Below are positions 6,114-61,009 of a stretch of 64,000 nt of DNA, piece by piece (position 1 is the stretch's first letter; every line of letters starts with the position of its first letter). The stretch comes from Longimicrobiales bacterium. Its GTDB lineage: Bacteria; Gemmatimonadota; Gemmatimonadetes; Longimicrobiales; Gaopeijiaceae. Location of the stretch: NCBI GenBank assembly GCA_951813395.1, contig OX638356.1, positions 661,340 through 725,339 on the forward strand, read 5' to 3'. The position numbers were made by a program, and so were the translations under genes. Below the pieces are notes generated by a model that worked only from the letters and a program-made list of their open reading frames with translations, was not told where the DNA came from and ran no database searches.

Positions 6114-7001
6114 CTACCTCCCGCCGCCCAGGTTCCTGATGAGGGGAATCCCGCCTTCGGTGGGAACGTATACCAGCGACCCCTCGGGCATCTCCGCGAG
6201 CTGCTGAATGTAGAAGAAGGTCAGATACTCCTGGGACAGACCCGCGGTGATGATCTGCTGAGCCTCGGCGATACCCTTGGCCTCCTCGGCCTGCTGACGC
6301 GCCTGTTCCTGGATGATCTGCGTCTGGAACTCCTCGGCGGCGACCTGCTGCTCGCGTTCCAGCTTCTGCTCGATCGCCTCGCGCACCCTGGGCGGCGCCT
6401 GGATGTCGCGCACGAACACGTCCACGACGTCGATGCGGTCGCCCGCCTTGGCCTGGATCTCCTCCTTCATGCTGATCGCCACCTCACGGCGGTCGGGGGA
6501 GAAGATCTCGTTGATCGACTTGGTGGCCACGGCGTCGCGAACACCGTTGCGGACCGCGTTGAGCACGATGCTGCGCTTGATCTGGTTTTCGGACCCGATG
6601 CGCTGATAGAGGTCGGGCGCGTTGTTGCCGTTGATCTCGAACAGGATGGACACCTCGAGCGCGACGTTGAGCTGCTCCGAGGTCTGCGCCTCGATCTGTT
6701 CGACACCGCCCTGGGCGGGGAAGGACTGTTCACGAACCGACATCCTTTCCACCGACGCAAAGGGGTTGACGATGTGTACGCCCTGCTCGAGAGACACGGG
6801 GTCGACCTGGCCGAGGAAGTGCTTGACCCCGACTTCGCCGACGCGGACCATCACGACGGCGTTCAGAAACGTCAGGCCGACGCCGACGAACATGATGACG
6901 TATCCGGCCAGGCGGGTCGGGACCTTCCCGCTCTCGCTCGGGAGGGATCGGACGATCGCCCCGATTGCGATCAGGACGATGGCGATGGCTGCGAAACCCA
7001 T
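6114..7001 (-). CDS. SPFH / prohibitin (band 7) family membrane protein
   Basis: This 295-aa protein has two hydrophobic segments near the N-terminus (about residues 3-20 and 31-50). A band-7 domain follows (VGVKHFLGQVDPVSLEQG; VREQSFPAQ), then a charged coiled coil rich in E, Q and A (about 205-265). This matches prohibitin-like proteins that form ring oligomers and organise membrane proteases or microdomains. I chose the ATG at 7001 because AAAGGA precedes it; an upstream extension to 7169 would lack signals and read through the divergent promoter region. It is transcribed toward the COG4324 peptidase, suggesting a shared envelope quality-control role (inference). Confidence 0.9.
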   Translation of the reverse strand: MGFAAIAIVLIAIGAIVRSLPSESGKVPTRLAGYVIMFVGVGLTFLNAVVMVRVGEVGVKHFLGQVDPVSLEQGVHIVNPFASVERMSVREQSFPAQGGVEQIEAQTSEQLNVALEVSILFEINGNNAPDLYQRIGSENQIKRSIVLNAVRNGVRDAVATKSINEIFSPDRREVAISMKEEIQAKAGDRIDVVDVFVRDIQAPPRVREAIEQKLEREQQVAAEEFQTQIIQEQARQQAEEAKGIAEAQQIITAGLSQEYLTFFYIQQLAEMPEGSLVYVPTEGGIPLIRNLGGGR

Positions 7002-7192: not shown

Positions 7193-7960
7193 GTGAGAAC
7201 CGCGGCGTCGGAGCATCGTCTGGAAGGCAAGGTGGCGATCGTCACCGGAGCATCGTCCGGAATTGGCCGGTCGGTCGCGTTTGCACTGGCGCGTGAGGGC
7301 GCCGCGGTCGTACTTGCGGCGCGGCGCATCGAGCGTCTGGAGGCGGACGTCCGCGAGTTGAGCGCGGCCGGGGCTCGAGCCCTCGCCGTCGCGGCCGACG
7401 TCACGCGGATGGACGACATGCGTGCCGTTGCAGACGCCGCCAAGACGGCATTCGCACGGATCGACATCTTGGTGAACAGTGCCGGGATCATGCCTCTTTC
7501 TCCACTTTCGGAGGGTCGCGTGTCGGACTGGACCCGAATGGTGGATGTCAACGTCAACGGCGTGCTGCACGGGATCGGGGCGGTGCTCCCGGCAATGCTG
7601 CAACAGGGGACGGGCCATATCGTCAACATCGGATCCGTGGCTGGCCGCCGGCCGTTCCCGGGTGGAACCGTGTATTGCGCCAGCAAGTTTGCCGTGCGCT
7701 GCATTTCGTGGGGTCTCCATCTGGAACTGGGCGCCGGACACGGTATTCGCTCGACGGACATTCAACCGGGCTATGCCGAGACGGAGTTGATCGATACCGT
7801 TCCGGACGCCGCTGCCCGCGACGCCTGGAATGAACGGTGGGCCGGCAAGAAACCGCTGGAGGCCGAGGACGTTGCGCAGGCGGTGCTATACGCCGTTACG
7901 TCGCCGCCGCACGTCTCGGTCAGCGAGGTGCTGGTGCGTCCCCTGGACCAGCCGACGTAG
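7193..7960 (+). CDS. SDR-family NAD(P)-dependent oxidoreductase
   Basis: This is a classical short-chain dehydrogenase of 255 aa. The cofactor motif TGASSGIG lies near residue 20, NSAG near 97, and the catalytic YCASK further on, with the serine of NIGSVAG about 14 residues upstream. An arginine pair after the second beta strand (AARRIERL) favours NADP(H). Its closest look is the YdfG/clavaldehyde-dehydrogenase-like group of 3-hydroxy acid or alcohol dehydrogenases, but the substrate cannot be deduced. The start is GTG at 7193 after GGGAGG; an upstream ATG would give an implausible arginine-rich extension. The gene stands alone, divergent from the SPFH gene. Confidence 0.9.
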   Translation: MRTAASEHRLEGKVAIVTGASSGIGRSVAFALAREGAAVVLAARRIERLEADVRELSAAGARALAVAADVTRMDDMRAVADAAKTAFARIDILVNSAGIMPLSPLSEGRVSDWTRMVDVNVNGVLHGIGAVLPAMLQQGTGHIVNIGSVAGRRPFPGGTVYCASKFAVRCISWGLHLELGAGHGIRSTDIQPGYAETELIDTVPDAAARDAWNERWAGKKPLEAEDVAQAVLYAVTSPPHVSVSEVLVRPLDQPT

Positions 7961-47772: not shown

Positions 47773-50700
47773 CTACCACTCGATTCGCCAGATCCGCCCC
47801 CCTTCTCCGGCGGCCCACCCGACGCGGCCGCCCGGCGCGAACTCGACCGCCCACGCGCTCACGCCATCGAGCGGCGCCCACGTCGCGCCCATGTCCGCGC
47901 TGTACGCGGCCGCCGGCGGCGCCACGGCCACCACCCGCCGGTTCCCGCGCCGGCCCCCCACCGCGCTCCCGTACACGGCTCCGTTGATCGGCGCGGGACG
48001 GGTGGCCATCCAGGTACGGCCGCCGTCCGTGGTCGCGGCCGCGTTGGCGGCGACCACCTCGTCGCGCGCGGCCAGATCGCCGCCCAGCGCCATGAACGGC
48101 GACCCGTCCGCCATTGCCAGGGTGAAGATCCCCGCCGCCTCGCCCGTCGCCATCGGGACATCGACCTCGCTCCATGTGGCGCCGTAATCCCGGGTTGCGA
48201 GCACGCGCGCCGACCCCCCGGCACCCGTGCCGATCCACCCTTGTCCCGAATGGCCCGCCCGGGCGCAGGTGCCGCTGGCCGCGAAACCGCCTTCGCCCTC
48301 GCCGGCCGGCGGCATCGCCCTCGCCGGGACCCGCGCCCAACTGCGCCCGCCGTCCCCGGTGACCAGGATGTACGGTGCGCCGTCGAACGAGTCACCGTAC
48401 GCGAAGCCCTGCCGGCCGTCCCAGAAATCGAGGCAGTCCAGAAAGCCCTCGGGCGCGTCCATCAGGAAGACGAGGCGCCATGACTCGCCGCCGTCGGCGG
48501 TGCGGTAGATACGCGATGCCGGCCCCGTGCCCGCGGTCAGCGCAATGGCCGCAAGGGACGAGAAGCCGTGGATGTCGCGGAATTGGAGCGAATCGCCCGC
48601 CGGCGCCGCCACCCGCTCCCACGCGGCACCGCCGTCGACGGTCCGCAGGATCACCCCGCCGTGCCCACTGGCCCACACCGTCTCCGTGGACACCGGACTG
48701 ATCGCCTGCAGGACCTCGGTCGTGCCGCTGGACTGTTCGACGATGCCGGGCGCGTCGGGGCCGATTGCCGCGGCCGCGCCGCCCGCGTCCTGCGCCTCCG
48801 CACCCCGCCGCCGATACACCTCGCGTGCTTCGTCGAACTGGGCGAAGACGTGTTCGCGCTCGCGCTGCGATCGCCAGCCGGGCCACTGGTCCGCCATGGC
48901 CTGCAGCTTGGCGATCCAGCGGAGCGCGTAGTCGGCAGCCGCGGCGCTCCGGATCGGGCGCCCCGCGACCGTCACCCACACGGGGTTCGTGAACGCCTGC
49001 GGGTACGCCGTGTCGAGGGGCCAGCGGTCCTCGCGGGCGCCCTCGACCCGCAGGTGGATCCACCCGCTCGCGCCGATGGCCACGGTGTCGTCGATGACGA
49101 GGGACTTGCGGGCGCCGGTGAGCTCCCAGGTGCGGACCACGTCGCCGTCGACGACCAGCTCGACCCTTTCCATCGGCACCACGCCCCACACCCGGCCACT
49201 CAGCCGCACCTCGCCGGGGCCGTCGAGTTCGAGCTCTTCCCCCGGCTCCTTTCCATCGACCGTGAACTCGATCAGCGGGCCGGAGCTGACGAAGGAACGG
49301 CCGTCGCGGAGCCCCTGAAACCACCCGTCCATGGTCAGCGTGCCGTCCGGCGTGCGGACGTAGGTGCGCATCGAGCCGAGGAGCGGGGTGGCGTGCAGGC
49401 TGGAGATGGAGTCCTCGCCGCCCACCACGGTTGCGCGAATACCGTTGCTCCAGACGGCGTAGACCGGGGGCCAGCCGTCCTGGGGCGTGGACCACTCGAC
49501 GGCGTCGGCCGCGGCGAGGGCGGCGTCGACGATGAAGCCCTTGGCGCCGCCGAGGTTGCCTTCGAGGGGATCGCCGTTGTAGAAGGAGTGGACGTAGGCG
49601 GTTGTGGCCCCCTGGGCCTTGGCCTTCAGCATCATGTCCGTGTTGCTGGGGTAGAGACTCTCGATCGCCGTGCCTTCGTAGCCCATCGCGTACGGAGAGA
49701 TCAGGTGCTCCCGGTGGCCGAACATGAAGACGTGGCCGTAGAAGGGCGGGCGGTACTCCTGACCGACGACCAGTAGGCGGTCCGGCTCGGAGAGCGGGTG
49801 CGGGCCGCCGCCCGGCAGCCAGAACTGGTGGTCGAGGATGCGGTTGTCCTTGTTGGCGATCTGCTCGGCGACGACATCCTGGTCTTCGGCTGCGGACATC
49901 ATCATCAGGTTGGAGAGGCTGTTGCGCAGGTTGCCGGCGTAGTTCATGTGGACGTGGGTGGAGCCCGAGAACCAGCCGTCGTCGGAGAGGTCGGAGATCT
50001 CCTCGAGCGTGACTGTCATCGTGGTGGTCTCGCCTGGCTGGACGACCGCGGTGTGCGTGACCGGCGTGGTTTCGAAGCCGCGCACGATCGTCATTTCGGC
50101 TTCGCCGGCCGGGAGTTCGACGGTGAACGAACCCGGATGGTGGAAGATCCGGTCGCCGGCGCGGGCCACGCGGGCATACGCGTCGGCGGGCGCGTAGGAC
50201 CTGCCGTCCGCGGCGGTAAGGTGCACGCGGCTGGCCAGCATCTCGCCCTGCGGGTCGACGGTGGTCACCGAGAGCGTCCCGGTGGGCCGGGCCCAGTGCC
50301 GCTCCATGATGTTGACGCGCCGCAGCTTGCCGCCGTTGGCTTCCAGGAGGTACAGCTGCGGCAGTCCGGACAGGTGGTTCGGGACGCCTTCCACCCACGG
50401 GTCGCCGCCGTTGGCCACGAAGGCGATCCACTCCGCGTCCGGTGACCAGCGCGGGTGGAAGGCGTCGTGGTCGAAGAAGGTCATCTTGTAGGGCTCGCCG
50501 CCCGTCGTGGGCTGGACGTACAGGTTCTGGAACTGGTCCGCGGCGCCCGCGGTCGAGGAGTAGACGAAACGGCGGCCGTCATACGACACGTGCGGCTGGG
50601 TGCGGTAGAGCGTCTGCTCGGCGAGCACGACCCGGCGGTCCTCGATGCCGCCGGCACGGGCCGGAACCCGGTAGACGTTGCCGCTCCCGAGTGCCACGTC

Positions 50701-51423
50701 GCGGTTGGAGACGATCAGCAGTTCCTCGCCGTTCGGCAGCCATGCGGGCGAGATGTGCATGTCCCAGGGCCCGAAGTAGAGCCGGTCGCGGGCAAAATAG
50801 TTGTCGGAGGTGACCGCGACCTCCGGGCCGGTCCAGGCGCCGCCGGCGAATGGGCGGATGTAGACGTTGAAGTAGCCGCTCGGCGCGGTCGAGACGTAGG
50901 CGATCCGGCCGCCGTCCGGCGAAAAGCGCGGGTCGGTGTGGATGTGGGCGCCCTCGGTGAGGCGGTGGCGCTCCCCGGTGGCCGTGTTCATGACTTCGAG
51001 GTCGATAGTGCCGCCGCCGTCGTCGGCCGTGTAGAGCAGCCACGCGCCGTCGGGAGAGTAGTTGGGCGAGGAGTAGTAGTCGGGGCCGTGCACGATCTCG
51101 TGGGCGTCGCCGGTCGCGATGTCCACTTCCCAGAGCGACCCGCTCATGGCCACCGCAACGCGCTCGCCGCCGGGGTGCCAGGCCGGGTACCAGGGCGACG
51201 AGGAGGGTGCCGGGGGGAAATGGAAGTTGTGCATGTAGTTGCCGCCGTGCGCGGCGGCGGGGTAGGCGCGCTGGGCGGAGAGGGAGCCGTGGGGCGCAAG
51301 CCCGGTCAGCGCGAGGGCGGCGGCCAGCGCGAGGGCGCGGGCGGGCGTGAAGGCGCGAGCGGGCGCGAGGGCGGGGCGGGCCAAGCGGGCGACGAAGGTT
51401 AGGGCGTTGCCGATTCGGGTCAT
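47773..51423 (-). CDS. Secreted TolB-propeller / CehA-type metallohydrolase / YCF48-like propeller fusion
   Basis: This 1216-aa protein has an Ala/Pro-rich signal peptide (cut near SLSAQ, residue 51). The first third is a TolB/PD40-type beta-propeller (repeats such as PNYSPDGAWLLYTAD and PRFSPDGGRIAYVS). A CehA/McbA-type PHP metallohydrolase occupies about 490-850, with metal-binding histidines in STHVHMNYAG and later histidines in GHVFMFGHREH and VHSFYNGD. From about 890 comes a second propeller of YCF48/BNR type (ILRTVDGGAAW, IYRTADGGESW, ATTDGGRTW). The first two parts are commonly one protein; the third is usually separate. It is predicted to be periplasmic or exported; the substrate is unknown. 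Confidence 0.82.
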   Translation of the reverse strand: MTRIGNALTFVARLARPALAPARAFTPARALALAAALALTGLAPHGSLSAQRAYPAAAHGGNYMHNFHFPPAPSSSPWYPAWHPGGERVAVAMSGSLWEVDIATGDAHEIVHGPDYYSSPNYSPDGAWLLYTADDGGGTIDLEVMNTATGERHRLTEGAHIHTDPRFSPDGGRIAYVSTAPSGYFNVYIRPFAGGAWTGPEVAVTSDNYFARDRLYFGPWDMHISPAWLPNGEELLIVSNRDVALGSGNVYRVPARAGGIEDRRVVLAEQTLYRTQPHVSYDGRRFVYSSTAGAADQFQNLYVQPTTGGEPYKMTFFDHDAFHPRWSPDAEWIAFVANGGDPWVEGVPNHLSGLPQLYLLEANGGKLRRVNIMERHWARPTGTLSVTTVDPQGEMLASRVHLTAADGRSYAPADAYARVARAGDRIFHHPGSFTVELPAGEAEMTIVRGFETTPVTHTAVVQPGETTTMTVTLEEISDLSDDGWFSGSTHVHMNYAGNLRNSLSNLMMMSAAEDQDVVAEQIANKDNRILDHQFWLPGGGPHPLSEPDRLLVVGQEYRPPFYGHVFMFGHREHLISPYAMGYEGTAIESLYPSNTDMMLKAKAQGATTAYVHSFYNGDPLEGNLGGAKGFIVDAALAAADAVEWSTPQDGWPPVYAVWSNGIRATVVGGEDSISSLHATPLLGSMRTYVRTPDGTLTMDGWFQGLRDGRSFVSSGPLIEFTVDGKEPGEELELDGPGEVRLSGRVWGVVPMERVELVVDGDVVRTWELTGARKSLVIDDTVAIGASGWIHLRVEGAREDRWPLDTAYPQAFTNPVWVTVAGRPIRSAAAADYALRWIAKLQAMADQWPGWRSQREREHVFAQFDEAREVYRRRGAEAQDAGGAAAAIGPDAPGIVEQSSGTTEVLQAISPVSTETVWASGHGGVILRTVDGGAAWERVAAPAGDSLQFRDIHGFSSLAAIALTAGTGPASRIYRTADGGESWRLVFLMDAPEGFLDCLDFWDGRQGFAYGDSFDGAPYILVTGDGGRSWARVPARAMPPAGEGEGGFAASGTCARAGHSGQGWIGTGAGGSARVLATRDYGATWSEVDVPMATGEAAGIFTLAMADGSPFMALGGDLAARDEVVAANAAATTDGGRTWMATRPAPINGAVYGSAVGGRRGNRRVVAVAPPAAAYSADMGATWAPLDGVSAWAVEFAPGGRVGWAAGEGGRIWRIEW

Positions 51424-51672
51424 GCGGCGCGTCCGGGGCAGGGGTGGATGCCCGAGCCCGATGCGGTGGGGCGCGGGCGTGCAGGGATCGTACCGCGCGG
51501 CGGGGGGGTGGGCCAGTGGGGGGTGGGGGTGGTGATGGACGCCGGTGCCCGGATGGCGTCCGCGCCAGCCGTCCGGACCGTCGTCTGGCGAGGGCGTGAC
51601 CGTTTGCCACGGGAAGCAGCGGGTCGCTACATATCCCGGTGGAGCATCCTGCAGGCTTGTTGTCGAATGTCA

Positions 51673-51706
51673 ACTAAAGGTTACTTAGTGTAATGTTCAC
51701 TTTACA
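51673..51706. promoter_or_regulatory. Nested AT-rich inverted repeats over the amidase start
   Basis: ACTAA (51673-51677) pairs with TTAGT (51685-51689), and TGTAA (51689-51693) pairs with TTACA (51702-51706). The block is one of the most AT-rich in the window and covers the amidase start codon at 51693. A repressor binding here would block initiation. No confident -35/-10 pair could be assigned. Confidence 0.4.
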
Positions 51707-53294
51707 TTTGTGGTCGCGCTTCTGCCCCCGCCACACGCTCGTGGTGCTCAGTCTGGCGTTCATGTTCGGCACCGGTCCGCTCGACGGGCAGAGTTTCGAG
51801 CTCGAAGAGGCGACGATTGCCGACATCCACGCCGCTTTCCTCTCCGACGACCTGACGTGCGTGGACCTCGTGCAGGCATACCTGGACCGGATCGATGCGT
51901 ACGACGAGCAGGGACCGCGGCTTAACGCAATCGCGACCCTGAACCCGCGCGCGCTCGACGAAGCGGCGCGCCTTGACGATGCCCTGGCGGCAGGCGGTCT
52001 CACCGGGCCGCTGCACTGCGTTCCGGTTCTGCTGAAGGACCAGGTCGAGACCAGCGACATGCCGACGACGTACGGCTCAGCGCTCTTTGCCGACTTTGTG
52101 CCGGACCGGGACGCGACGATCGTCACGCGGATGAAGGAGGCGGGCGCGCTGATCCTGGCCAAGACGAACATGGGCGAGTTCGCGTCGCGCTACGTGGGGT
52201 CGGGCTTCGGTGTGATCCGCAACGCCTACGACCCCCGTCGCAACCCCAGCGGCTCGTCGGGCGGCACCAGCGTGGGCGTCGCGGCCAACTTCGGCATGGT
52301 CGGCGTCGGCGAGGACACGGGCGGCTCGATCCGCGGTCCGGCGGCGGTGGCGTCGCTGGTCGGTCTGCGGCCCACCCTAGAGCTCGTCAGCCGCTTCGGC
52401 CTGATGCCCGCCAACCCCACGACCGACACGCAGGGCCCGATCACTCGCACGGTCATGGACGCGGCCATTCTGCTGGGCGTGATCGCGGGCTACGATCGGA
52501 ACGATCCCGTGACCGCGCGCGCCGTGGGCCGTGTGCCGGATTCATATGAGGGCGGACTTGGCGACGACGGGTTGCGGGGGGCCCGCATCGGAGTCATCCG
52601 CGATCCCATGGACGAGTCGGTGGATCAGGACTCGGAGGGGTTCCGGCAGGTGCGCTCCCGCGTCGACGCGGCGGTGGCGGATCTGCGACGGCTCGGGGCC
52701 GAGGTCGTGGACCCCGTCGCGGTCGCGGGGATCGAGACGGTGAACCCGGTGTTCGGCAGCAACGCGTTCGAGACCGAGGAGGCTACGGACGCGTACCTGG
52801 CCGGGCATGCCGGCGCACCGTACAAGACACTGCGCTCGATCCTGCTGACCGGGCGCGTGACGCCGTGGCGGGCCGCGGGACTGGCGGGGTCACTCGGCAA
52901 GACCACCCGCGACCCCGGCTATCTGGACTACCTGCTCGCGCGCGGCCGGATCAGGCGGGACGTGCTCGTGGCCATGGCCGCCCACGACCTGGACGTTCTT
53001 GTCTACGCCACCTTCGACCACCCGCCGACACCCATCGCGGAGGATGCCGAGACCAACCCGGCCCCGGCCGACCGGTACGGCCTGGGCGACAACCGTCTCC
53101 TCAGCCCCATCACCGGGTTCCCCGCGCTGACGGTGCCGGCCGGGTTCACGCCGGACGGGCTGCCCGTGGGGATCGAGTTCCTGGGACGGCCGTTCACCGA
53201 GGCCATGCTGCTGCGCTTCGGGTACGCGTTCGAACAGGGGACGGGGTATCGGCGGCCGCCGGCGAGCGCGCCGGCGCTGGGCGGGGGGCGGTAA
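51693..53294 (+). CDS. Secreted amidase-signature family hydrolase
   Basis: This 533-aa protein has a signal peptide (about 1-33). Its amidase-signature triad is Lys115 in PVLLKDQVETSD, a cis-serine near residue 187 in NPSGSSGGTSVG and the nucleophile serine near residue 212 in GEDTGGSIRGPA. All are intact, so it should hydrolyse amides or peptidyl amides outside the cytoplasm. The ATG at 51693 is supported by the signal peptide. Its last 101 bases overlap, on the opposite strand, the 3' end of the STAND gene. Confidence 0.93.
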   Translation: MFTLHLWSRFCPRHTLVVLSLAFMFGTGPLDGQSFELEEATIADIHAAFLSDDLTCVDLVQAYLDRIDAYDEQGPRLNAIATLNPRALDEAARLDDALAAGGLTGPLHCVPVLLKDQVETSDMPTTYGSALFADFVPDRDATIVTRMKEAGALILAKTNMGEFASRYVGSGFGVIRNAYDPRRNPSGSSGGTSVGVAANFGMVGVGEDTGGSIRGPAAVASLVGLRPTLELVSRFGLMPANPTTDTQGPITRTVMDAAILLGVIAGYDRNDPVTARAVGRVPDSYEGGLGDDGLRGARIGVIRDPMDESVDQDSEGFRQVRSRVDAAVADLRRLGAEVVDPVAVAGIETVNPVFGSNAFETEEATDAYLAGHAGAPYKTLRSILLTGRVTPWRAAGLAGSLGKTTRDPGYLDYLLARGRIRRDVLVAMAAHDLDVLVYATFDHPPTPIAEDAETNPAPADRYGLGDNRLLSPITGFPALTVPAGFTPDGLPVGIEFLGRPFTEAMLLRFGYAFEQGTGYRRPPASAPALGGGR

Positions 53295-56200
53295 GTATAC
53301 ATGCCGTGTAGCCGTGTTTCCTCGCCAGCCTTGCCAGGGTCTCCGGAGGCCCACCCTTTAGCGGTGCCAAGTGGGCCTCTGCCGAGACGGAACGGCCAAG
53401 GAGGGTAGCGTATAACTCAGGTTCGGTGCCTACCAAATGGCGGAAGAACACCGGGTCGGCGTCCGGCGGTATCGCAAGGATCAGGTCACGCCGGTCGTCG
53501 GTGGTCATTCGGTCTCGTGCAGTCAATATAAGCTCGTGTTTGGCTGGCGAAGGATCGTCGTCTCCTTGCTCCTCTTTGGACTTGGCGCTCTCGCGAGCAT
53601 TGTGAAGCGTCCAGGCCCGTGCAGCATCGGAGTCGGAGCGAAGGACCTCGAGGAGCAAATCAGTGTCACCGCACTCGACTACGGCAGCTTGCCAGAGGGT
53701 GCCCGACACACCGCCGGGTCTCCTTCCGCCCACACTCTCCCACAATCCGGCGGCGGTAGCCCCACGCACACGAGGGTCTGGGTGCTCCAGAAACCTGTGT
53801 TTCCATTCCCGTGGCATGTCATCCCAGGGAAGCCGGTTCCCCACGGATTGGGCGTAGTCGGGCACTACCGCCATGATGTGGCGTACCGCGTCTTCGCCGA
53901 GACCGCCGACCCGCACCCCAAAACCAACTGCGACGGATTCGAGCCGTGGATCGCTCGCGACGATGCTCCACGCCGTGTCCGATGCAGCATGCGTAGCCGT
54001 CGCCGCCTCCAGAAACGGAGTGATCCAGTCAGGAGGTGCCCGCCCGAACGCGACGAGGGCTTCCAGCCAATCCATGGGTGAGGCTACAACTTGAGCGAGC
54101 TGGTTGGGAATGAGCTTGAGGATGTCCGGATAGTGGTGGTCCATCAGTTCACGCTGCTGCTCGTAGTACGACATCCGCGCAACGACGATCTTTGGCGGCT
54201 CGTCGCTCCACTGGACCGCAATGGCCCGTGCGATGGAGTGCAACTTCCGCTCGGGACGGTCATGTGATCGCATTTCGCCAGGGGCTGGGAAAAGGCGACG
54301 AAGTATGGGAACGTCGATTCTCGGCAGATCTGCTTGCAGTCGATGTCTGGCGATCAGCCTTTGTGCCCACAGAGCCACGCCCGGCGCGTTGTCAGCCAAC
54401 GCGATGACGCCGGGTAGCATCGCGGAGAGTTTCTCCCGTGCCGTCGCCCGGGTTTCGGACCTCTCGTTCAACACTCCGGGTCCGATGGCCCAGCGGCGGA
54501 CGATCTCACGAGCGCACGAGACTCCGGCTAGGCTCATGTGGCGAAAAACACCCATGGCTGTGGGCCAAAAGCGCGCGATTTCGCTCACGTCAGTTCCGGA
54601 CAGCGAACCCAATGCGAGTCTGAATCCTGTTTCGGTGACCCGATCCCCGCGGATGTTCTCGAAGTGTAGTGCGAATACAACCTGCAAGAGCCTGGTCAAG
54701 CCATTCTCCCACCCGCGTGGCGCCGAGGAATCTGCCGTCTTCGTTGCGATCAGATCCGTTTGATCCACAATCTTCTGGAGCAGGAGGTGCCGGCGTTCCA
54801 CAGCTCCGGCACCTAGGCATCCGCCGAGGACCCAGTTTCTTGCGTGCGCGTCAAGCGCGTCGCCGTCGGATCGACTCTCGATGACATCAGGTATCATCTG
54901 CTCCAATGCGCGGTCAGGTGCGAATTCGAGTGCCGGCGCGGCAATGAGTTCGGTTTTCTCCGCGTGGTTGCCGAGCACCCAATCGACGGCCTGCTTTCCC
55001 GACCACGCGTAGTCCTCCCACAAGCGCTTCCCAACCCCCGCATCGTCGTGTTCTTCAAGGCGTCCACGCACCAGGCGATGCGGAACTGATGCTCCTCTGC
55101 GCAGTGTCCCAATCAGCGTCTCAGTGCAGGCCACGGGGTCTTGCACTTCCTCGATGACGGGCTCGATGGCGTTACTCCAACTGCCGGAGAAGAAGCTGCG
55201 CCGGACCAGGGCATGTCGAAGTGCGGATGGCATGACCGACAGGGCCCCGGTCGGAAACAGGTCGTTCCCGATCTCGTGAACGATGCCGGTACCTGCGACC
55301 GGAAGGACTCCCTCTCGCAGGCGCGACTCATGCACCTGCAGGGTCTTCGCGGCACCGGTGAGACTCATCCCGGCCGAACCACCCAGGGCAAATGCCGCCA
55401 GTGCATCAAGTGTGAAACGCGAAGGGCGGATGTCCCTTTTCAGTTCCGACAACAACAGTTGCCCGCTTGCCAGGTCCTGGAGTTCGCCTCGTTGTGCCCA
55501 CTGCGCCAGGGTCACGGCCAGCCCGGGCCTGCCGTTACTCTGGTCGAGAATCTCACCGATCAGCACGTTCGTGAACCGGGGGCCCACCGCGAGGACAATG
55601 TCCGCCATTACGCTTCGCGCAAGCGGGTTCACCCGGCGAACCCGATCGCGGGGCAGATACAGGGCCTGGCGAACATCGTCCTCGTGCCCGGGCCAGGTTG
55701 TGGCCATGATCCGGAACCGCATGTCCAACTCGCGTCGCAGTCGGCTCAGTTTGCCGAGAAGGGAATCGCGGGAAGTCGCAGCATCCAGGTGCGCGTCGTC
55801 AACGAAGACCCAATCGGGGTCGAGTTCACGGCAAGCGTCAGCGATCTGTCCGAGGTCTTCCGAAACCACGAAGAGCCCATGCCCCTCCCTGGCGAGCGCC
55901 CCCAGAAGCGCCGTCTTCCCGACGCCGGGCTGGCCCGAGATCACGACGTCATGTCGAGCCCGTCGCAGCCAGGCCAATTCGTCGTCCCGACCAAGCAGCT
56001 GCTGCGCTGGAAAGGGTCGAGGCGACCTGGGCAAGGCCGACAGAGCGGGCGGATCGCCGGTCAGACCCAGTAGTTCCCTTCGCCATGCCGGATTCTTGTA
56101 GAGGCGGCCCACGAAGTCGGCATGGTCATGGATGTTGCGCAGGACGAACCCCAGTTCGGCGGCGCGTTTGTTGAGGTTTCTCCGCTTCAGCGGGGTCAGC

Positions 56201-56499
56201 GCCTGCGAGGTCGCCAGCACGCACTCGCTGGCAGAGCTTCCCGTGCTCCTGCAGGACTTCAGATTCCTGGTGAGATTGCCGATTACGTCCTCACCCGTGG
56301 TGGCCACCAGCGGGATGGGATGCCGGCCGCCCGGCACCGACATCGCCCCGTCCATACCCCCGTCTCCCCCTCCCCGAATCGGCACCAGGCCCGGATACAC
56401 ATCGCGCAGCAAATCCACCGCACATCGCTCGAACAGATCCGGATCCAGTCTCTTCCCCAGACGTTCCTCGATGTCCCGGTACAGTGGGTCCTTCACCAC
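53194..56499 (-). CDS. STAND-like NTPase with N-terminal restriction-endonuclease-like domain
   Basis: This 1101-aa protein carries an N-terminal domain of about 145 residues resembling the restriction-endonuclease/Mrr fold: RGGGDGGMDG at 42-51, then LVATT at 64-68 where an E/Q-x-K motif is expected. Next is an NTPase module with Walker A GQPGVGKTA (189-197) and Walker B DWVFVDDAH (229-237). The remaining 700 residues look like helical repeats suited to sensing. The last ~35 residues are a Pro/Ala/Arg-rich tail read antisense to the amidase gene. The GTG start (56499) follows GGAGG, one base after the partner gene's stop. The layout recalls antiviral STAND proteins (inference). Confidence 0.7.
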   Translation of the reverse strand: MVKDPLYRDIEERLGKRLDPDLFERCAVDLLRDVYPGLVPIRGGGDGGMDGAMSVPGGRHPIPLVATTGEDVIGNLTRNLKSCRSTGSSASECVLATSQALTPLKRRNLNKRAAELGFVLRNIHDHADFVGRLYKNPAWRRELLGLTGDPPALSALPRSPRPFPAQQLLGRDDELAWLRRARHDVVISGQPGVGKTALLGALAREGHGLFVVSEDLGQIADACRELDPDWVFVDDAHLDAATSRDSLLGKLSRLRRELDMRFRIMATTWPGHEDDVRQALYLPRDRVRRVNPLARSVMADIVLAVGPRFTNVLIGEILDQSNGRPGLAVTLAQWAQRGELQDLASGQLLLSELKRDIRPSRFTLDALAAFALGGSAGMSLTGAAKTLQVHESRLREGVLPVAGTGIVHEIGNDLFPTGALSVMPSALRHALVRRSFFSGSWSNAIEPVIEEVQDPVACTETLIGTLRRGASVPHRLVRGRLEEHDDAGVGKRLWEDYAWSGKQAVDWVLGNHAEKTELIAAPALEFAPDRALEQMIPDVIESRSDGDALDAHARNWVLGGCLGAGAVERRHLLLQKIVDQTDLIATKTADSSAPRGWENGLTRLLQVVFALHFENIRGDRVTETGFRLALGSLSGTDVSEIARFWPTAMGVFRHMSLAGVSCAREIVRRWAIGPGVLNERSETRATAREKLSAMLPGVIALADNAPGVALWAQRLIARHRLQADLPRIDVPILRRLFPAPGEMRSHDRPERKLHSIARAIAVQWSDEPPKIVVARMSYYEQQRELMDHHYPDILKLIPNQLAQVVASPMDWLEALVAFGRAPPDWITPFLEAATATHAASDTAWSIVASDPRLESVAVGFGVRVGGLGEDAVRHIMAVVPDYAQSVGNRLPWDDMPREWKHRFLEHPDPRVRGATAAGLWESVGGRRPGGVSGTLWQAAVVECGDTDLLLEVLRSDSDAARAWTLHNARESAKSKEEQGDDDPSPAKHELILTARDRMTTDDRRDLILAIPPDADPVFFRHLVGTEPELYATLLGRSVSAEAHLAPLKGGPPETLARLARKHGYTACILTAPRPAPARSPAAADTPSPVRTRTRSAAAWPR
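53295..53302. repeat. Left copy of border repeat GTATACAT
   Basis: The octamer GTATACAT begins directly after the amidase stop codon. An identical direct copy lies at 58066-58073 beyond the two-gene ATPase island. It could be a target duplication or a trace of site-specific insertion. The sequence is AT-rich and nearly palindromic in a GC-rich genome, but eight bases alone prove little. Confidence 0.35.
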
Positions 56500-56500
56500 T

Positions 56501-57982
56501 TCAGCCTCCGATGAGCCAGACCAGCAGCGCAGTCGGGACCGCCATCAACTCCGGATCACTCAAATCGAGCGCGCTCCGGGTGGCCACGACACCGCGCCAG
56601 CGAGACGCTCTCATCGTCCGCGCCGCCCGCCTCCACCGTTCGCCGTCGACGTACTTCGACTCGACGGCGAGATCACCAAACCCGGGGCCCACGAAGTCGA
56701 TCTCCTTGCGCGTTGGTGTCCTGTGGTGCAACACGGCGTCGAAGTTCAGGTAGCCGCCCGGGCGTTCGCGGGCGAACGACCGGACCAGAGCCATGCCGAG
56801 TTGTTGCTCGGACATGGGTCCGAAGTCGGCAGTGGGCTGTGTGCGCGGCGAGAGGCGCGAATAGATCGGATCGGTGAAGTATGTCTTCTCCTGTGACCGA
56901 AGAGCGGGCCGGAGATCGTGTTCCCGATGACATGGCCACGCCACGAAGCTCTCGCGAAGGGCGTCGATGCGCCGGCGAACGGTGTTCGCGGATGTGCCAA
57001 TGTCCGTGCCGATGTCATGACAGTTGGTAGGCGAGGCGATCCCCCGGGCCAGCCGTTGGACGAAGGCGTCCGTCTGTGTCAACGACCACGCCGCCCTCCG
57101 GAAAGACTCCCCGTGAATCACATCGAGCAGGGTCCGCTCGAATACCCGCGACTCTTCTGCCTCATGGGCCGCGACCGCTTGCGGGAAGCCGCCAACCGTC
57201 AAGTAGGTCTCCCACTCTGCCACGAGTCGCCTTAACCATGGAGTAAGCGTCCGGACGGCGTCCGACACGGTTGCAGTGGTCAGATCGGCGACTGCGAAGG
57301 GGCCGAAGTCGTTGGGTGGAGAACCGATGGAAAGAGCCGAACCGCTTCCAGACCTGACTTCGACGAAATCCCGGAACGGCATCGGGAGCAGGATGCGATC
57401 GGGTCGCAGAGCATTCCCGCGTCGCCCGGCGAGAGCCTTGACCGCCTCGGTCAGATTGGCGGCAGACGAACCCGTGAGTACCACTGTATCCAGGGAGAAG
57501 CGACTGTCGTTGTCGCGAAGCCACTTGATTGCGGCCGGCCATCCGTCGGTGATAGCGGTGATTTCGTCGATGAACCAGAAACGCCGCACGTCAATCGGCG
57601 TCAAGTCGGCGGCAGCGTCCACGGCGCGACGAAGATCGCCGGCGGTCAACTCGTCGGCTGCGATGTGAATGATGCGCCGGGGATCCTCTCCGGCGTCTAT
57701 CAGCCGCCGTATCTTTTTTTTGACCTCAACGGATTTTCCGACTCTCCTGGGGCCGCGGAGGACGTAGAGCCCACCCGGCGCAAGGTCTTCAATGACTCGG
57801 GCCGTATACTCGAACGGAGCCTCGCGGGCCCGCCGGAGGTCGGGATCGCGAAGTACCCAGGTTCGAGGCTCGGCCCACCAGCTGGTTCGGGCCAGAAGGT
57901 CTCGCAGTTCGGGTGTGGTTGCCAGTCGTGTCTCCAGGTACCGGGGATTGTCTGGTCGCGAGCGGAAGATGGCTGGCTCCAT
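56501..57982 (-). CDS. AAA ATPase of the DUF4143 type
   Basis: This 493-aa protein has Walker A GPRRVGKS at 78-85 and Walker B RRFWFIDEIT around 134-142. A winged-helix region follows (SANTVRRRIDALRESF). The C-terminal nuclease-like DUF4143 part has EIDFVGPG and LAVESKYVDG, i.e. a D...E-x-K pattern. Family members are very common and mostly uncharacterised. It is the first gene of a two-gene operon with the STAND-like protein. The ATG at 57980-57982 has no clear Shine-Dalgarno; TTGACA lies just upstream on the minus strand. Confidence 0.82.
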   Translation of the reverse strand: MEPAIFRSRPDNPRYLETRLATTPELRDLLARTSWWAEPRTWVLRDPDLRRAREAPFEYTARVIEDLAPGGLYVLRGPRRVGKSVEVKKKIRRLIDAGEDPRRIIHIAADELTAGDLRRAVDAAADLTPIDVRRFWFIDEITAITDGWPAAIKWLRDNDSRFSLDTVVLTGSSAANLTEAVKALAGRRGNALRPDRILLPMPFRDFVEVRSGSGSALSIGSPPNDFGPFAVADLTTATVSDAVRTLTPWLRRLVAEWETYLTVGGFPQAVAAHEAEESRVFERTLLDVIHGESFRRAAWSLTQTDAFVQRLARGIASPTNCHDIGTDIGTSANTVRRRIDALRESFVAWPCHREHDLRPALRSQEKTYFTDPIYSRLSPRTQPTADFGPMSEQQLGMALVRSFARERPGGYLNFDAVLHHRTPTRKEIDFVGPGFGDLAVESKYVDGERWRRAARTMRASRWRGVVATRSALDLSDPELMAVPTALLVWLIGG

Positions 57983-58031
57983 AGACCCATGTCAACAGTA
58001 CGCCCGACAAGTCTCTTCGAGATGGGATATT

Positions 58032-58073
58032 ATGTATACCTTATCATACGTACATGTCGGAAAATGTATACAT
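58032..58073. promoter_or_regulatory. AT-rich regulatory region with ATGTATAC repeats upstream of the ATPase island
   Basis: ATGTATAC occurs at 58032-58039 and again at 58064-58071, with a TACGTA palindrome between (58047-58052). The region lies 50-90 bases before the start of the two-gene ATPase operon and is strongly AT-rich. It probably contains its promoter and operators. The right copy of the GTATACAT border repeat (58066-58073) is inside it. Confidence 0.4.
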
Positions 58074-58086
58074 CATTCTCCGCATC

Positions 58087-58111
58087 GTTAGATATTCGGA
58101 GCCTGTCTAAC
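58087..58111. repeat. Short inverted repeat GTTAGA / TCTAAC
   Basis: GTTAGA (58087-58092) and TCTAAC (58106-58111) are a perfect six-base inverted repeat with a 13-base spacer. It lies 50 bases past the serine hydrolase stop, in the gap ahead of the ATPase island. It could be a weak hairpin at the end of the hydrolase transcript. Confidence 0.3.
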
Positions 58112-58161
58112 AGGAGAACGTCGGCGTACGCCTTCCGTGAAGCTCACGTTGCCGACCGCGA

Positions 58162-59622
58162 TCAGCCGCTGCGGCGCATGGCGAAGACGCCGTTCAGGTA
58201 GTGCGTCGCACGACCGCTGCCGTCGTCGCCCCAGAAGGCGACGTCCCAGCCGCGGTTGCCGCCCATCGCCGGATCGCGCGGCAGGAACCGGTCCCCGCCG
58301 AGCGGTATCAGCTCGGACTCCAGCGTGCTGCCGATCTCCGAGCGCGCCACCAGCCGGTCGCCGTCCACGGAGAACGAAAACCGGCTGCCCACCGCTTCGA
58401 ACTGGCCGACATACCGCTCGAGTTCAACCTTCCGGGGCGTCACCGAGTCCGGCTTCGGCGTCTGGGGCTTGTCGATGCCGAAGACCTCCGGGAAGAGGGT
58501 GTCGAACACCTTGTCGGCCAGCGGGTAGCCCTGGCTCGGCACGTTGGCGATCGTCGCGGCCGCGACGCCCTTGTTCGGACACCAGAGCAACAGGGAGGAC
58601 CCGCCCGAGTTGGTGCCGCTGTGCCCGTAGATCACCTCGCCGCCCCAACGCTTCCAGTAGGGCCCTGTGCACCACCGCTGGGCAATGATTCGGGTCGGCA
58701 TGTCGATCTCCGGGGTGTGCATCGTTTCGACGGCCTGCTCCGACAGCACCTGCCGCCCGTCGGCCGAGCGCCCGTTTCGGAGGAACATCCCGGCGAACCG
58801 CGCGAGGTCGCCGGCGCTGCAGCACAGGGTTGCCCCGGCCGGGGCGATGCTGCGCGGCAGCCCCCAGAACGGTACCCGCTCACCTTCGGGCCTCGATGGG
58901 GTCGGCGAGTAGCCTAGCGCCACCGGGTGATAGAGCAGGTCCTCCGGGAAGGTAGCCGAGTGATCGAGCCCGGCCGGCTGGAGGATCCGCTCGGCGAGCA
59001 GGGTCTCCCAGTTCCTACCCATCACCCGCTGGGCGGCGAACCCGGCGACGGCGGTGCCCGCGTTCGAGTAGCCGTAGGCCATACCCGGCTCGAATATCCC
59101 GGGAAACCCGGCGAGCGAGGCGACGTACCGGCCCAGGGCGTCATCGCCGCGACCGTGATCCGTGTATGGCCCGTTGTCGAGTCCCGACGACATCGAGAGC
59201 AGCTGGCGCAGGGTCACGTGGACGGGAGGGACGTCACTCGTCAGGGCCGCTCCGTCGAGGTAGCTCCCGACGGGTTCGTCCAGGTCGAGCGTTCCCTCGT
59301 CGACCAGCGCCATGACCACGGCGGCGTTGAAGACCTTGGTGGTCGAGCCGATCTGGAACAGGGTGTCCGGCGTGACGGCCAGGTTGCGCTCACGGATCGC
59401 CAGACCGGTTGCAAACTCGTGGACCGCCTCGCCGTCGAACACCGCGAGCTGGGCGCCGACCACGCCGAGGCTCGCGGCCGACTCGTCGAGGAGCTGCTGG
59501 AGATCGCGCGGACGGACCGCCACCTGCGGCGGAGCCGCGATCGCCGCCAGGCCCCGCGCCGACGCGACGATCGGCAACGCGGCCGCGGCCGCACCGGCTT
59601 TCAGCAAGGTACGTCGATTCAT
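58162..59622 (-). CDS. Tat-exported serine hydrolase (beta-lactamase/PBP-like family)
   Basis: This 486-aa protein has a twin-arginine signal (NRRTLLKAG) with a hydrophobic stretch to about residue 28. The class C beta-lactamase-like active site is complete: SxxK in IGSTTKVFN, YxN in YGYSNAGTA and HxG in IYGHSGTNSG. A C-terminal lipocalin-like domain (about 390-480) ends the protein. It may be an esterase, D-aminopeptidase or beta-lactamase; context does not decide. The ATG at 59622 has GGGAG upstream. It is divergent from the propeller lipoprotein gene. Confidence 0.9.
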   Translation of the reverse strand: MNRRTLLKAGAAAAALPIVASARGLAAIAAPPQVAVRPRDLQQLLDESAASLGVVGAQLAVFDGEAVHEFATGLAIRERNLAVTPDTLFQIGSTTKVFNAAVVMALVDEGTLDLDEPVGSYLDGAALTSDVPPVHVTLRQLLSMSSGLDNGPYTDHGRGDDALGRYVASLAGFPGIFEPGMAYGYSNAGTAVAGFAAQRVMGRNWETLLAERILQPAGLDHSATFPEDLLYHPVALGYSPTPSRPEGERVPFWGLPRSIAPAGATLCCSAGDLARFAGMFLRNGRSADGRQVLSEQAVETMHTPEIDMPTRIIAQRWCTGPYWKRWGGEVIYGHSGTNSGGSSLLLWCPNKGVAAATIANVPSQGYPLADKVFDTLFPEVFGIDKPQTPKPDSVTPRKVELERYVGQFEAVGSRFSFSVDGDRLVARSEIGSTLESELIPLGGDRFLPRDPAMGGNRGWDVAFWGDDGSGRATHYLNGVFAMRRSG

Positions 59623-59773
59623 CAGGAACTCCCGGGTCTTGTAACCGCGGCTACGGCGTCTTGCAGGGTCATGGCGGATCCCCGCTGCGCCGACGATACT
59701 TCAAAGATAGGCTGGCCCCACGGGCGCGCGAATTTGGTTCAGACGCGTCCACTTTGAGTCGCGCGAGGCGCAC

Positions 59774-60988
59774 ATGAAGCTGCACCGTCTCCTCTCCCTG
59801 TTGCTTCCGGCTGCGCTCGCCTGCGAGCAGGGCCGGCGATCGCCGTCCTCGCTTTCCACCGAAACACGGGACAGCGCGGGCATCCGGATCGTGGAGAACG
59901 CACGGCCGCCCGAGGGCTCGCGCCTCTCCTGGCGGATCGGATCGGGGCCCGCCGTCTCCATCGGTGCCGTCGAGGGCGAGGAGCCCTACCTGTTGGACGC
60001 GGCTTTCGACGCCACCCGGCTGAGCGACGGACGCATCGTCGTTGCGAACGTGGGGACACAGGAATTGCGGGTCTTCGACGCAAACGGCATCTACCTGGCG
60101 ACCTGGGGCGGCCGGGGAGAGGGACCGGGCGAATTCACGGGTCTCTGGCAGATCGAGCCGTGGCCGGGCGACTCGATTGTGGCCTGGAACGCGCCGCGCT
60201 TCGGGATTTCGATCTTTGACGCGCGGGGCACCTACGCCCGCACCTTCAGACTGGCTCACGACGAGGGCACGCCGCCAATGCAGCGGTTCTGGCCACAATC
60301 AACGACGCGAGACGGAGCGGTTCTCGCGGCCTACCGGCCCGAAGCCGCGGACACGGTCGTCGTTCAGCTCAGGGATGGTGATGGCGAAATCCGGAGTTCG
60401 TTCGGAACCCACCCGGGCAGGGAGCCGTACATCCATCGCGAGGGCGACCGTTCGATCCTCTACTGGACGATCTTCGGGCAGCAGCCCGTGTGGACCTCCT
60501 GGGGCGACCTTACGATTGTCGCCCACACCGGCCGCTACGAACTCAGGGCCTACCGCGCAGACGGTTCACTGACCCGGATCGTCCGACGCGACCATGTCCC
60601 GCGCCCGCCCTCGGAGACCGAAATCGAGGCCTTTATCGAATGGCAGGTCGGCCGCAGCGTTCGCAGTTCCGAGAGCGAACGAGCCGAGTCGCGGGGCCGG
60701 TACCGTAACGTCCCGGTCGCGGAGCACTTTCCGGCTTTCGAATCGGTCCTGACGGACGCCCGCGATCACCTCTGGGTCGAGGAATACGAGTCACCGGCTG
60801 AAGAGGAACCGGGAGCGCTCTGGACCGTGTTCGATCCGGAGGGTCGGGCGCTGGGGTTCGTGGAATTGCCGGAGGGACTCCGGGTCCACGAGATCGGCGA
60901 GGACTACATTCTCGGCCGCGCTCTCGACGAACTCGATGTGGAGTACATCCAGGTGTGGGCGCTGGAGCGGTTGGGAGGCGGGAGCTGA
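59774..60988 (+). CDS. Six-bladed beta-propeller lipoprotein
   Basis: This 404-aa protein has a lipoprotein signal (LLLPAALACEQ, cysteine near residue 17) and a series of propeller blades. One includes the typical LRVFDANGIYLATWGGRGEGPGEF segment (written here in two parts: LRVFDANGIYLA, TWGGRGEGPGEF). NHL-type six-bladed proteins of this kind are abundant in environmental Bacteroidota and Gemmatimonadota and usually have no known function. The ATG at 59774 follows GCGAGG. It converges on the alpha/beta hydrolase gene with 21 bases between. Confidence 0.85.
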   Translation: MKLHRLLSLLLPAALACEQGRRSPSSLSTETRDSAGIRIVENARPPEGSRLSWRIGSGPAVSIGAVEGEEPYLLDAAFDATRLSDGRIVVANVGTQELRVFDANGIYLATWGGRGEGPGEFTGLWQIEPWPGDSIVAWNAPRFGISIFDARGTYARTFRLAHDEGTPPMQRFWPQSTTRDGAVLAAYRPEAADTVVVQLRDGDGEIRSSFGTHPGREPYIHREGDRSILYWTIFGQQPVWTSWGDLTIVAHTGRYELRAYRADGSLTRIVRRDHVPRPPSETEIEAFIEWQVGRSVRSSESERAESRGRYRNVPVAEHFPAFESVLTDARDHLWVEEYESPAEEEPGALWTVFDPEGRALGFVELPEGLRVHEIGEDYILGRALDELDVEYIQVWALERLGGGS

Positions 60989-61009
60989 GGGTGCCTGCGG
61001 GAGAGCGTC

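Follow-up and report, generated by a model that had tools for sequence, protein, structure and literature searches.

We identified a two-gene cassette in the window (the whole 64-kb stretch of DNA that was analysed), in which a DUF4143 gene lies directly upstream of a gene for a STAND-like NTPase. Among 395 Gemmatimonadota genomes surveyed, eight carried the STAND gene, that of the window included, and the DUF4143 gene was found directly upstream in all eight copies. Co-occurrence of the two genes had been set as a test in the initial annotation of this DNA, and every STAND gene found in Gemmatimonadota was paired. The two genes move together between bacterial genomes. Each half is of a known or catalogued kind or is found alone; no described system with a DUF4143-STAND pair was found in the open-access literature. 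From our analysis we propose, tentatively and with somewhat less than even confidence, that the cassette is a mobile two-gene anti-phage (or anti-plasmid) Avs-like system, in which DNA would be cut by the DUF4143 (PDC-S01) partner.

The insert and its genomic site

The two ORFs lie on the minus strand and are separated by a single base at position 56500 (Table 1). This spacing had been pointed out in the initial annotation, together with a lower GC content than in the flanks and AT-rich control DNA, and all three were borne out. GC content was 0.628 in the insert vs 0.684 in the rest of the window, where 4.8-kb windows outside the island had a mean of 0.685 (sd 0.015, minimum 0.653), and the GC3 of the island ORFs was 0.71-0.74 vs 0.89-0.92 in the three adjoining ORFs. 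The AT-rich DNA, at 57990-58130 on the 5′ side of the DUF4143 gene, contains GTATAC palindromes.

Table 1. Features of the cassette, in window coordinates
Feature	Position	Strand	Remarks
Low-GC island (insert)	53303-58131		Between amidase gene and beta-lactamase-like gene; ends approximate, from comparison with empty sites
STAND gene, 1101-aa ORF, GTG start	53194-56499	minus	Family-conserved part stops at about residue 1065
N-terminal Mrr/REase-like domain, residues 1-150	56050-56499	minus	D50 kept, T67 at the lysine position
STAND NTPase domain, residues about 167-340	55480-56001	minus	GQPGVGKT (Walker A), VFVDD (Walker B), GRPGLA (GxP motif); conserved
C-terminal HEAT/ARM-like alpha-solenoid, residues 450-1065	53305-55152	minus	Fastest-evolving part
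Read-through tail, residues 1066-1101	53197-53304	minus	Antisense to amidase 3′ end; not conserved
DUF4143 gene, 493 aa, PDC-S01 family	56501-57982	minus	AAA_14 ATPase, wHTH, C-terminal PD-(D/E)xK nuclease (Pfam, PADLOC)
AAA_14 ATPase domain, residues 72-206	57365-57769	minus	GPRRVGKS (Walker A), FWFIDE (Walker B)
Predicted helix-turn-helix, residues about 320-345, GTSANTVRRRIDAL	56948-57025	minus	Weak HTH_AsnC match, E 0.014; conserved in alignment
PD-(D/E)xK catalytic motif, E427-I-D429 ... E441-S-K443	56654-56704	minus	From alignment
GGAGG Shine-Dalgarno-like site for STAND gene	56505-56509	minus	Inside last DUF4143 codons (IGG-stop); from junction sequence
Control element, two GTATAC palindromes, 32-bp centre spacing	58034-58071		Upstream of DUF4143 gene
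Single GTATACAT	53295-53302		Other island end, just past amidase stop

Comparison with other genomes showed both empty and occupied states of this site. The amidase and beta-lactamase-like genes are 24-36 bp apart in G066, G347 and G299, while in G247 the site is occupied by a distinct version of the pair, with a STAND identity of 54% between flanks of 88-89% DNA identity. An N-terminally truncated N6_N4 DNA methyltransferase gene (L034 13050-13810) lies between this second pair and the flank, which hints that the site once carried restriction-modification genes as cargo. In G197, a decayed copy of the pair, resembling the G138 locus, was found at another site. The flanks in G127, G394 and G058 enclose a DPP4-type peptidase-like host gene (the type being read from sequence); these inserts were rejected as alternative cargo, and the empty-site argument therefore rests on G066, G347 and G299. 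No tRNA was found in the 64-kb window, so that a tRNA-linked insertion was rejected, and a search for riboswitches or other RNAs gave no Rfam match in 50000-61000. A dispersed family of similar genes, probably encoding beta-propeller lipoproteins, flanks several insertion sites in the genus (window 59774-60988 and L033/L036).

The flanks of the window insert are housekeeping genes, and searches of ten other neighbouring ORFs gave no defence domain. The expected defence-island setting stood in part: the cassette is gained and lost as at a defence hotspot, but its neighbours in the window do not form a classical island.

Domains of the two proteins

The large protein has effector-position, STAND and solenoid modules, and the Walker A and B motifs and helical C-terminus ascribed to it are both present. 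The length of 1101 residues holds for the ORF but not for the conserved protein. Two genomes without the pair (G127 and G394) match only the tail of the ORF, indicating that the conserved STAND protein ends near residue 1065 and that the remainder is read-through. AAA_16 and nSTAND3 matched all eight members weakly, with the window protein under the curated cut-offs; for nSTAND3 (PF20720), the matches had E up to 0.1 (best 0.00048), and scores were 19.1 bits for the window protein and 23-24 bits for two Planctomycetota proteins, against a gathering cut-off of 27.2. The alpha-solenoid was modelled with AF2 pLDDT mostly 80-95, and its fold list was filled by HEAT/ARM repeat proteins at Z 7-10, matches of a generic kind. 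PDB sequence searches returned generic AAA matches or chance hits only.

The likeness of the STAND N-terminus to Mrr rests on profile comparison: residues 1-150 matched Mrr_cat proteins with a profile-profile probability of 78% (E 1.9e-5), and PADLOC Aga_REase matched the N-terminus weakly. AlphaFold models were poor in the nuclease-like regions of both proteins, and for this reason we make no fold claim for this domain. In the alignment, the lysine of Q/E-x-K was replaced in 11 of 11 STAND-family proteins with an Mrr-like N-terminus; D50 and G51 were kept in these proteins, and T67 was invariant where Mrr proteins have Q-x-K. Since both Q and K were kept in all ten Mrr_cat domains gathered within the same bacterial family, the loss of the lysine appears old and fixed rather than a sign of decay. 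A restriction-endonuclease-like N-terminus had been proposed; its nuclease-like character was retained, but the lysine is gone in every relative that keeps the domain, and the domain is probably not a canonical nuclease.

Planctomycetota provided further information on this position. Three genomes carry four divergent STAND relatives, none with an adjoining DUF4143 gene. In one of these relatives (L111 5865-9335, G702), the NTPase and solenoid are kept and the first 98 residues match a CBASS-type endonuclease effector profile (PADLOC 2e-15), and the same genome also encodes an Mrr-like version (L110). We regard L111, from its sequence, as a natural effector swap, which identifies the N-terminal position of the STAND protein as an effector slot. 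The lysine-less N-terminus is shared by solo Planctomycetota relatives that have no DUF4143 neighbour, where the domain must act without DUF4143; it may be an active nuclease of a non-canonical type.

The initial annotation had described the upstream gene as encoding a DUF4143-type AAA ATPase with a C-terminal D...E-x-K pattern, and an E-I-D...E-S-K motif is indeed present. The product matched Pfam AAA_14 (1.4e-13) and DUF4143 (3.4e-5), the latter below the cut-off in the window protein and above it in two relatives. PADLOC PDC-S01 was matched by all 16 aligned proteins, with 3.6e-22 for the window protein. The helix-turn-helix match sits between the ATPase and the nuclease, and the nuclease motif EID..ESK was complete in 8 of 8 paired proteins in the alignment. 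In a low-confidence model, the nuclease region aligned structurally with Can2 and BstEII (Z about 5.5); the best, though weak, fold match of the ATPase was Avs5 (Z 6.9).

As the effector slot of the STAND protein lacks the usual lysine and its partner has a complete nuclease motif, the partner is favoured as the cutter. The DUF4143 protein had been suggested to be a partner or a second sensor. We kept the role of partner; given its intact PD-(D/E)xK motif, the protein is, judged by sequence, better seen as an effector than as a second sensor.

Control element, pairing and exchange

Upstream of 11 of 16 DUF4143 genes, both solo and paired ones, we found a twin GTATAC element whose palindromes are spaced by 32-33 bp; 8 of these elements are exact. 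In a control with shuffled upstream DNA, such elements arose in 51 of 3200 cases with mismatches and in 1 of 3200 as exact copies. The 4.1-Mb genome contains two GTATAC pairs at 20-36 base spacers, and the 32-bp spacing occurs only in the window; the second pair (L086 1501-1532, G000:C1:347350-347381) lies outside the window with 26-bp spacing, at a place with no known DUF4143 relative.

The DUF4143 wHTH probably binds the twin palindromes and would thereby repress its own operon. In one alternative, the DUF4143 protein is mainly a regulator or guard that represses through the GTATAC pair, while toxicity resides in the STAND protein, through an unconventional nuclease centre (D50, E24, Thr67). 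The operator is strongly conserved, a helix-turn-helix lies within the DUF4143 protein, and no part of the STAND protein is better conserved than its N-terminal domain, in solo relatives too, all of which would agree with such a division of roles. We nevertheless consider it unlikely, given that the full nuclease motif and the Walker motifs are kept in DUF4143 and that the operator also precedes solo DUF4143 genes, which lack a downstream STAND gene to control.

GTATAC motifs also occur away from the promoter. GTATACAT occurs four times in the window, where 0.15 occurrences would be expected, and each match lies at an end of the island. Orphan twin GTATAC elements with no DUF4143 gene were seen in L040 (G127) at about 1758-1800 and L041 (G394) at about 7410-7465, on the amidase side of this site and before the DPP4-type peptidase gene; they may have been left by lost cassettes, or may be targets that existed before any insertion. 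In L035 (G138), the STAND gene is followed directly by three GTATAC motifs at 6211-6248, and the same motif stands beside a heavily deleted remnant of the pair in G197 (L093/L096).

We considered whether these motifs mark a selfish mobile cassette, in which the DUF4143 ATPase-nuclease would drive insertion or homing at GTATAC sites with the STAND gene as a passenger. Such a cassette would explain why GTATACAT stands at both island ends, why orphan pairs mark the same site in pair-less genomes, why one GTATAC cluster is common to G138, next to an intact copy, and G197, next to a decayed one, and why insertion sites vary. However, a recombinase is absent, no terminal repeats or target duplication were established, GTATAC is missing at the distal end of most copies, and the orphan pairs are equally explained as footprints of lost genes, which makes this reading highly improbable.

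The junction of the pair is closely kept. The gap between the DUF4143 and STAND genes is 1 base in seven loci and 2 bases in one, with a GGAGG or GGGGG Shine-Dalgarno-like site within the last DUF4143 codons at all eight, and the genes flanking the pair differ at most loci. Relatives of the DUF4143 gene without a STAND partner were found at L042-L048 with 62-68% identity, the contigs of L046 and L047 stopping soon after the gene. The plasmid search gave a single distant DUF4143 match, and no STAND relative was found on viral contigs and plasmids. Purifying selection acts on both genes (dN/dS 0.10-0.20 and 0.24-0.35). The DUF4143 and STAND trees are discordant, which is compatible with loose as well as tight coupling, and monophyly of the paired DUF4143 genes was neither rejected nor shown (p-AU 0.137).

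These data bear on a further alternative, namely that two self-sufficient defence genes share one promoter, the STAND gene having been captured downstream of PDC-S01 with additive effect and no physical coupling. That each half is found alone elsewhere, that the operator goes with the DUF4143 gene whether solo or paired, and that the gene trees disagree would all be expected if the genes were independent. On the other hand, the Gemmatimonadota STAND gene was never found without DUF4143 (8/8), although DUF4143 is often alone, and the 1-2 base junction with its overlapping Shine-Dalgarno-like site survives about 50% protein divergence. We therefore rate independence of the two genes as rather unlikely.

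Within the STAND protein, the lysine-less N-terminal domain changes slowest and the solenoid fastest: identity was 63-79% in the N-terminal domain and 51-78% in the NTPase, whereas in the solenoid it lay mostly at 31-61%, reaching 55-70% inside the L037-L039 group. Between the G152 and G017 loci, the synonymous difference per 75 codons was 0.07-0.34 along DUF4143; within STAND it was 0.37-0.45 in the first 150 codons, 0.52-0.80 in the rest and 0.39 at the end. The STAND interior, sensor included, thus appears to have been replaced between these loci while its surroundings stayed. Such an exchange is in keeping with a recognition region on which there is selection for change.

Proposed action and relation to known systems

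Our preferred reading, an Avs-like pair, would act as follows. The fast-changing solenoid of the STAND protein would bind an invader protein, and ATP-driven assembly of the STAND NTPase would cluster the N-terminal REase-like domains. The lysine-less domain would then provide a platform that docks or activates the co-expressed DUF4143 ATPase-nuclease, whose PD-(D/E)xK site would cut DNA, so that the infection would be halted. On this analysis the most likely mode would be abortive, with the active nuclease outsourced to PDC-S01. A split Avs, in which a catalytically dead REase adaptor in the STAND receptor would recruit and activate the PDC-S01 ATPase-nuclease in trans, is possible but on balance doubtful. 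Against the outsourced-nuclease model, solo DUF4143 genes persist without STAND, and solo STAND relatives in Planctomycetota have the lysine-less domain with no DUF4143 gene beside them.

If a split Avs is true, the abundant DUF4143 family would gain a defined trigger and function. With its recognisable sensor, its operator-like element and a sensing region prone to swaps, the operon provides a handle on DUF4143 nuclease switching, and the pair offers a direct route to asking whether a pseudo-nuclease STAND protein acts through a partner.

Compared with Mrr-type restriction endonucleases, the STAND N-terminus has profile similarity but lacks the D ... Q-x-K active site. An endonuclease effector domain like that of CBASS Cap4-like proteins is found at the N-terminus of the Planctomycetota paralogue but is absent from the window protein, and no cyclase or cyclic-nucleotide sensor was seen here. 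Avs5 (SIR2-STAND) has an nSTAND3-type NTPase and helical repeats (PMC12931631), to which the STAND protein compares with its sub-threshold nSTAND3 match and its own repeats, whereas the effector of Avs5 is a SIR2 NADase.

Avs1-Avs4 recognise phage proteins and then cut phage and host DNA (PMC12931631). The STAND protein shares with them an effector position, a STAND NTPase and a repeat sensor; in contrast to them, its N-terminus is without the catalytic lysine and a separate nuclease gene is attached. No PADLOC Avs model matched the window protein (E up to 1) or any of the eight members (E up to 0.1). As there was no Avs profile match and the effector motif was lacking, we did not file the pair as Avs.

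The upstream gene, finally, matches the PDC-S01 models and has the same layout of an ATPase with a PD-(D/E)xK nuclease. PDC-S01 is reported to join an ATPase to the PD-(D/E)xK superfamily and to rank fourth in abundance among prokaryotic defence candidates, and most PDCs still await validation (PMC12988326). We found no report of its mode of action, and a single open-access paper was found to name DUF4143. PDC-S01 is catalogued as a single-gene candidate, whereas here a STAND gene is fixed to it in one operon, with twin GTATAC palindromes in front.
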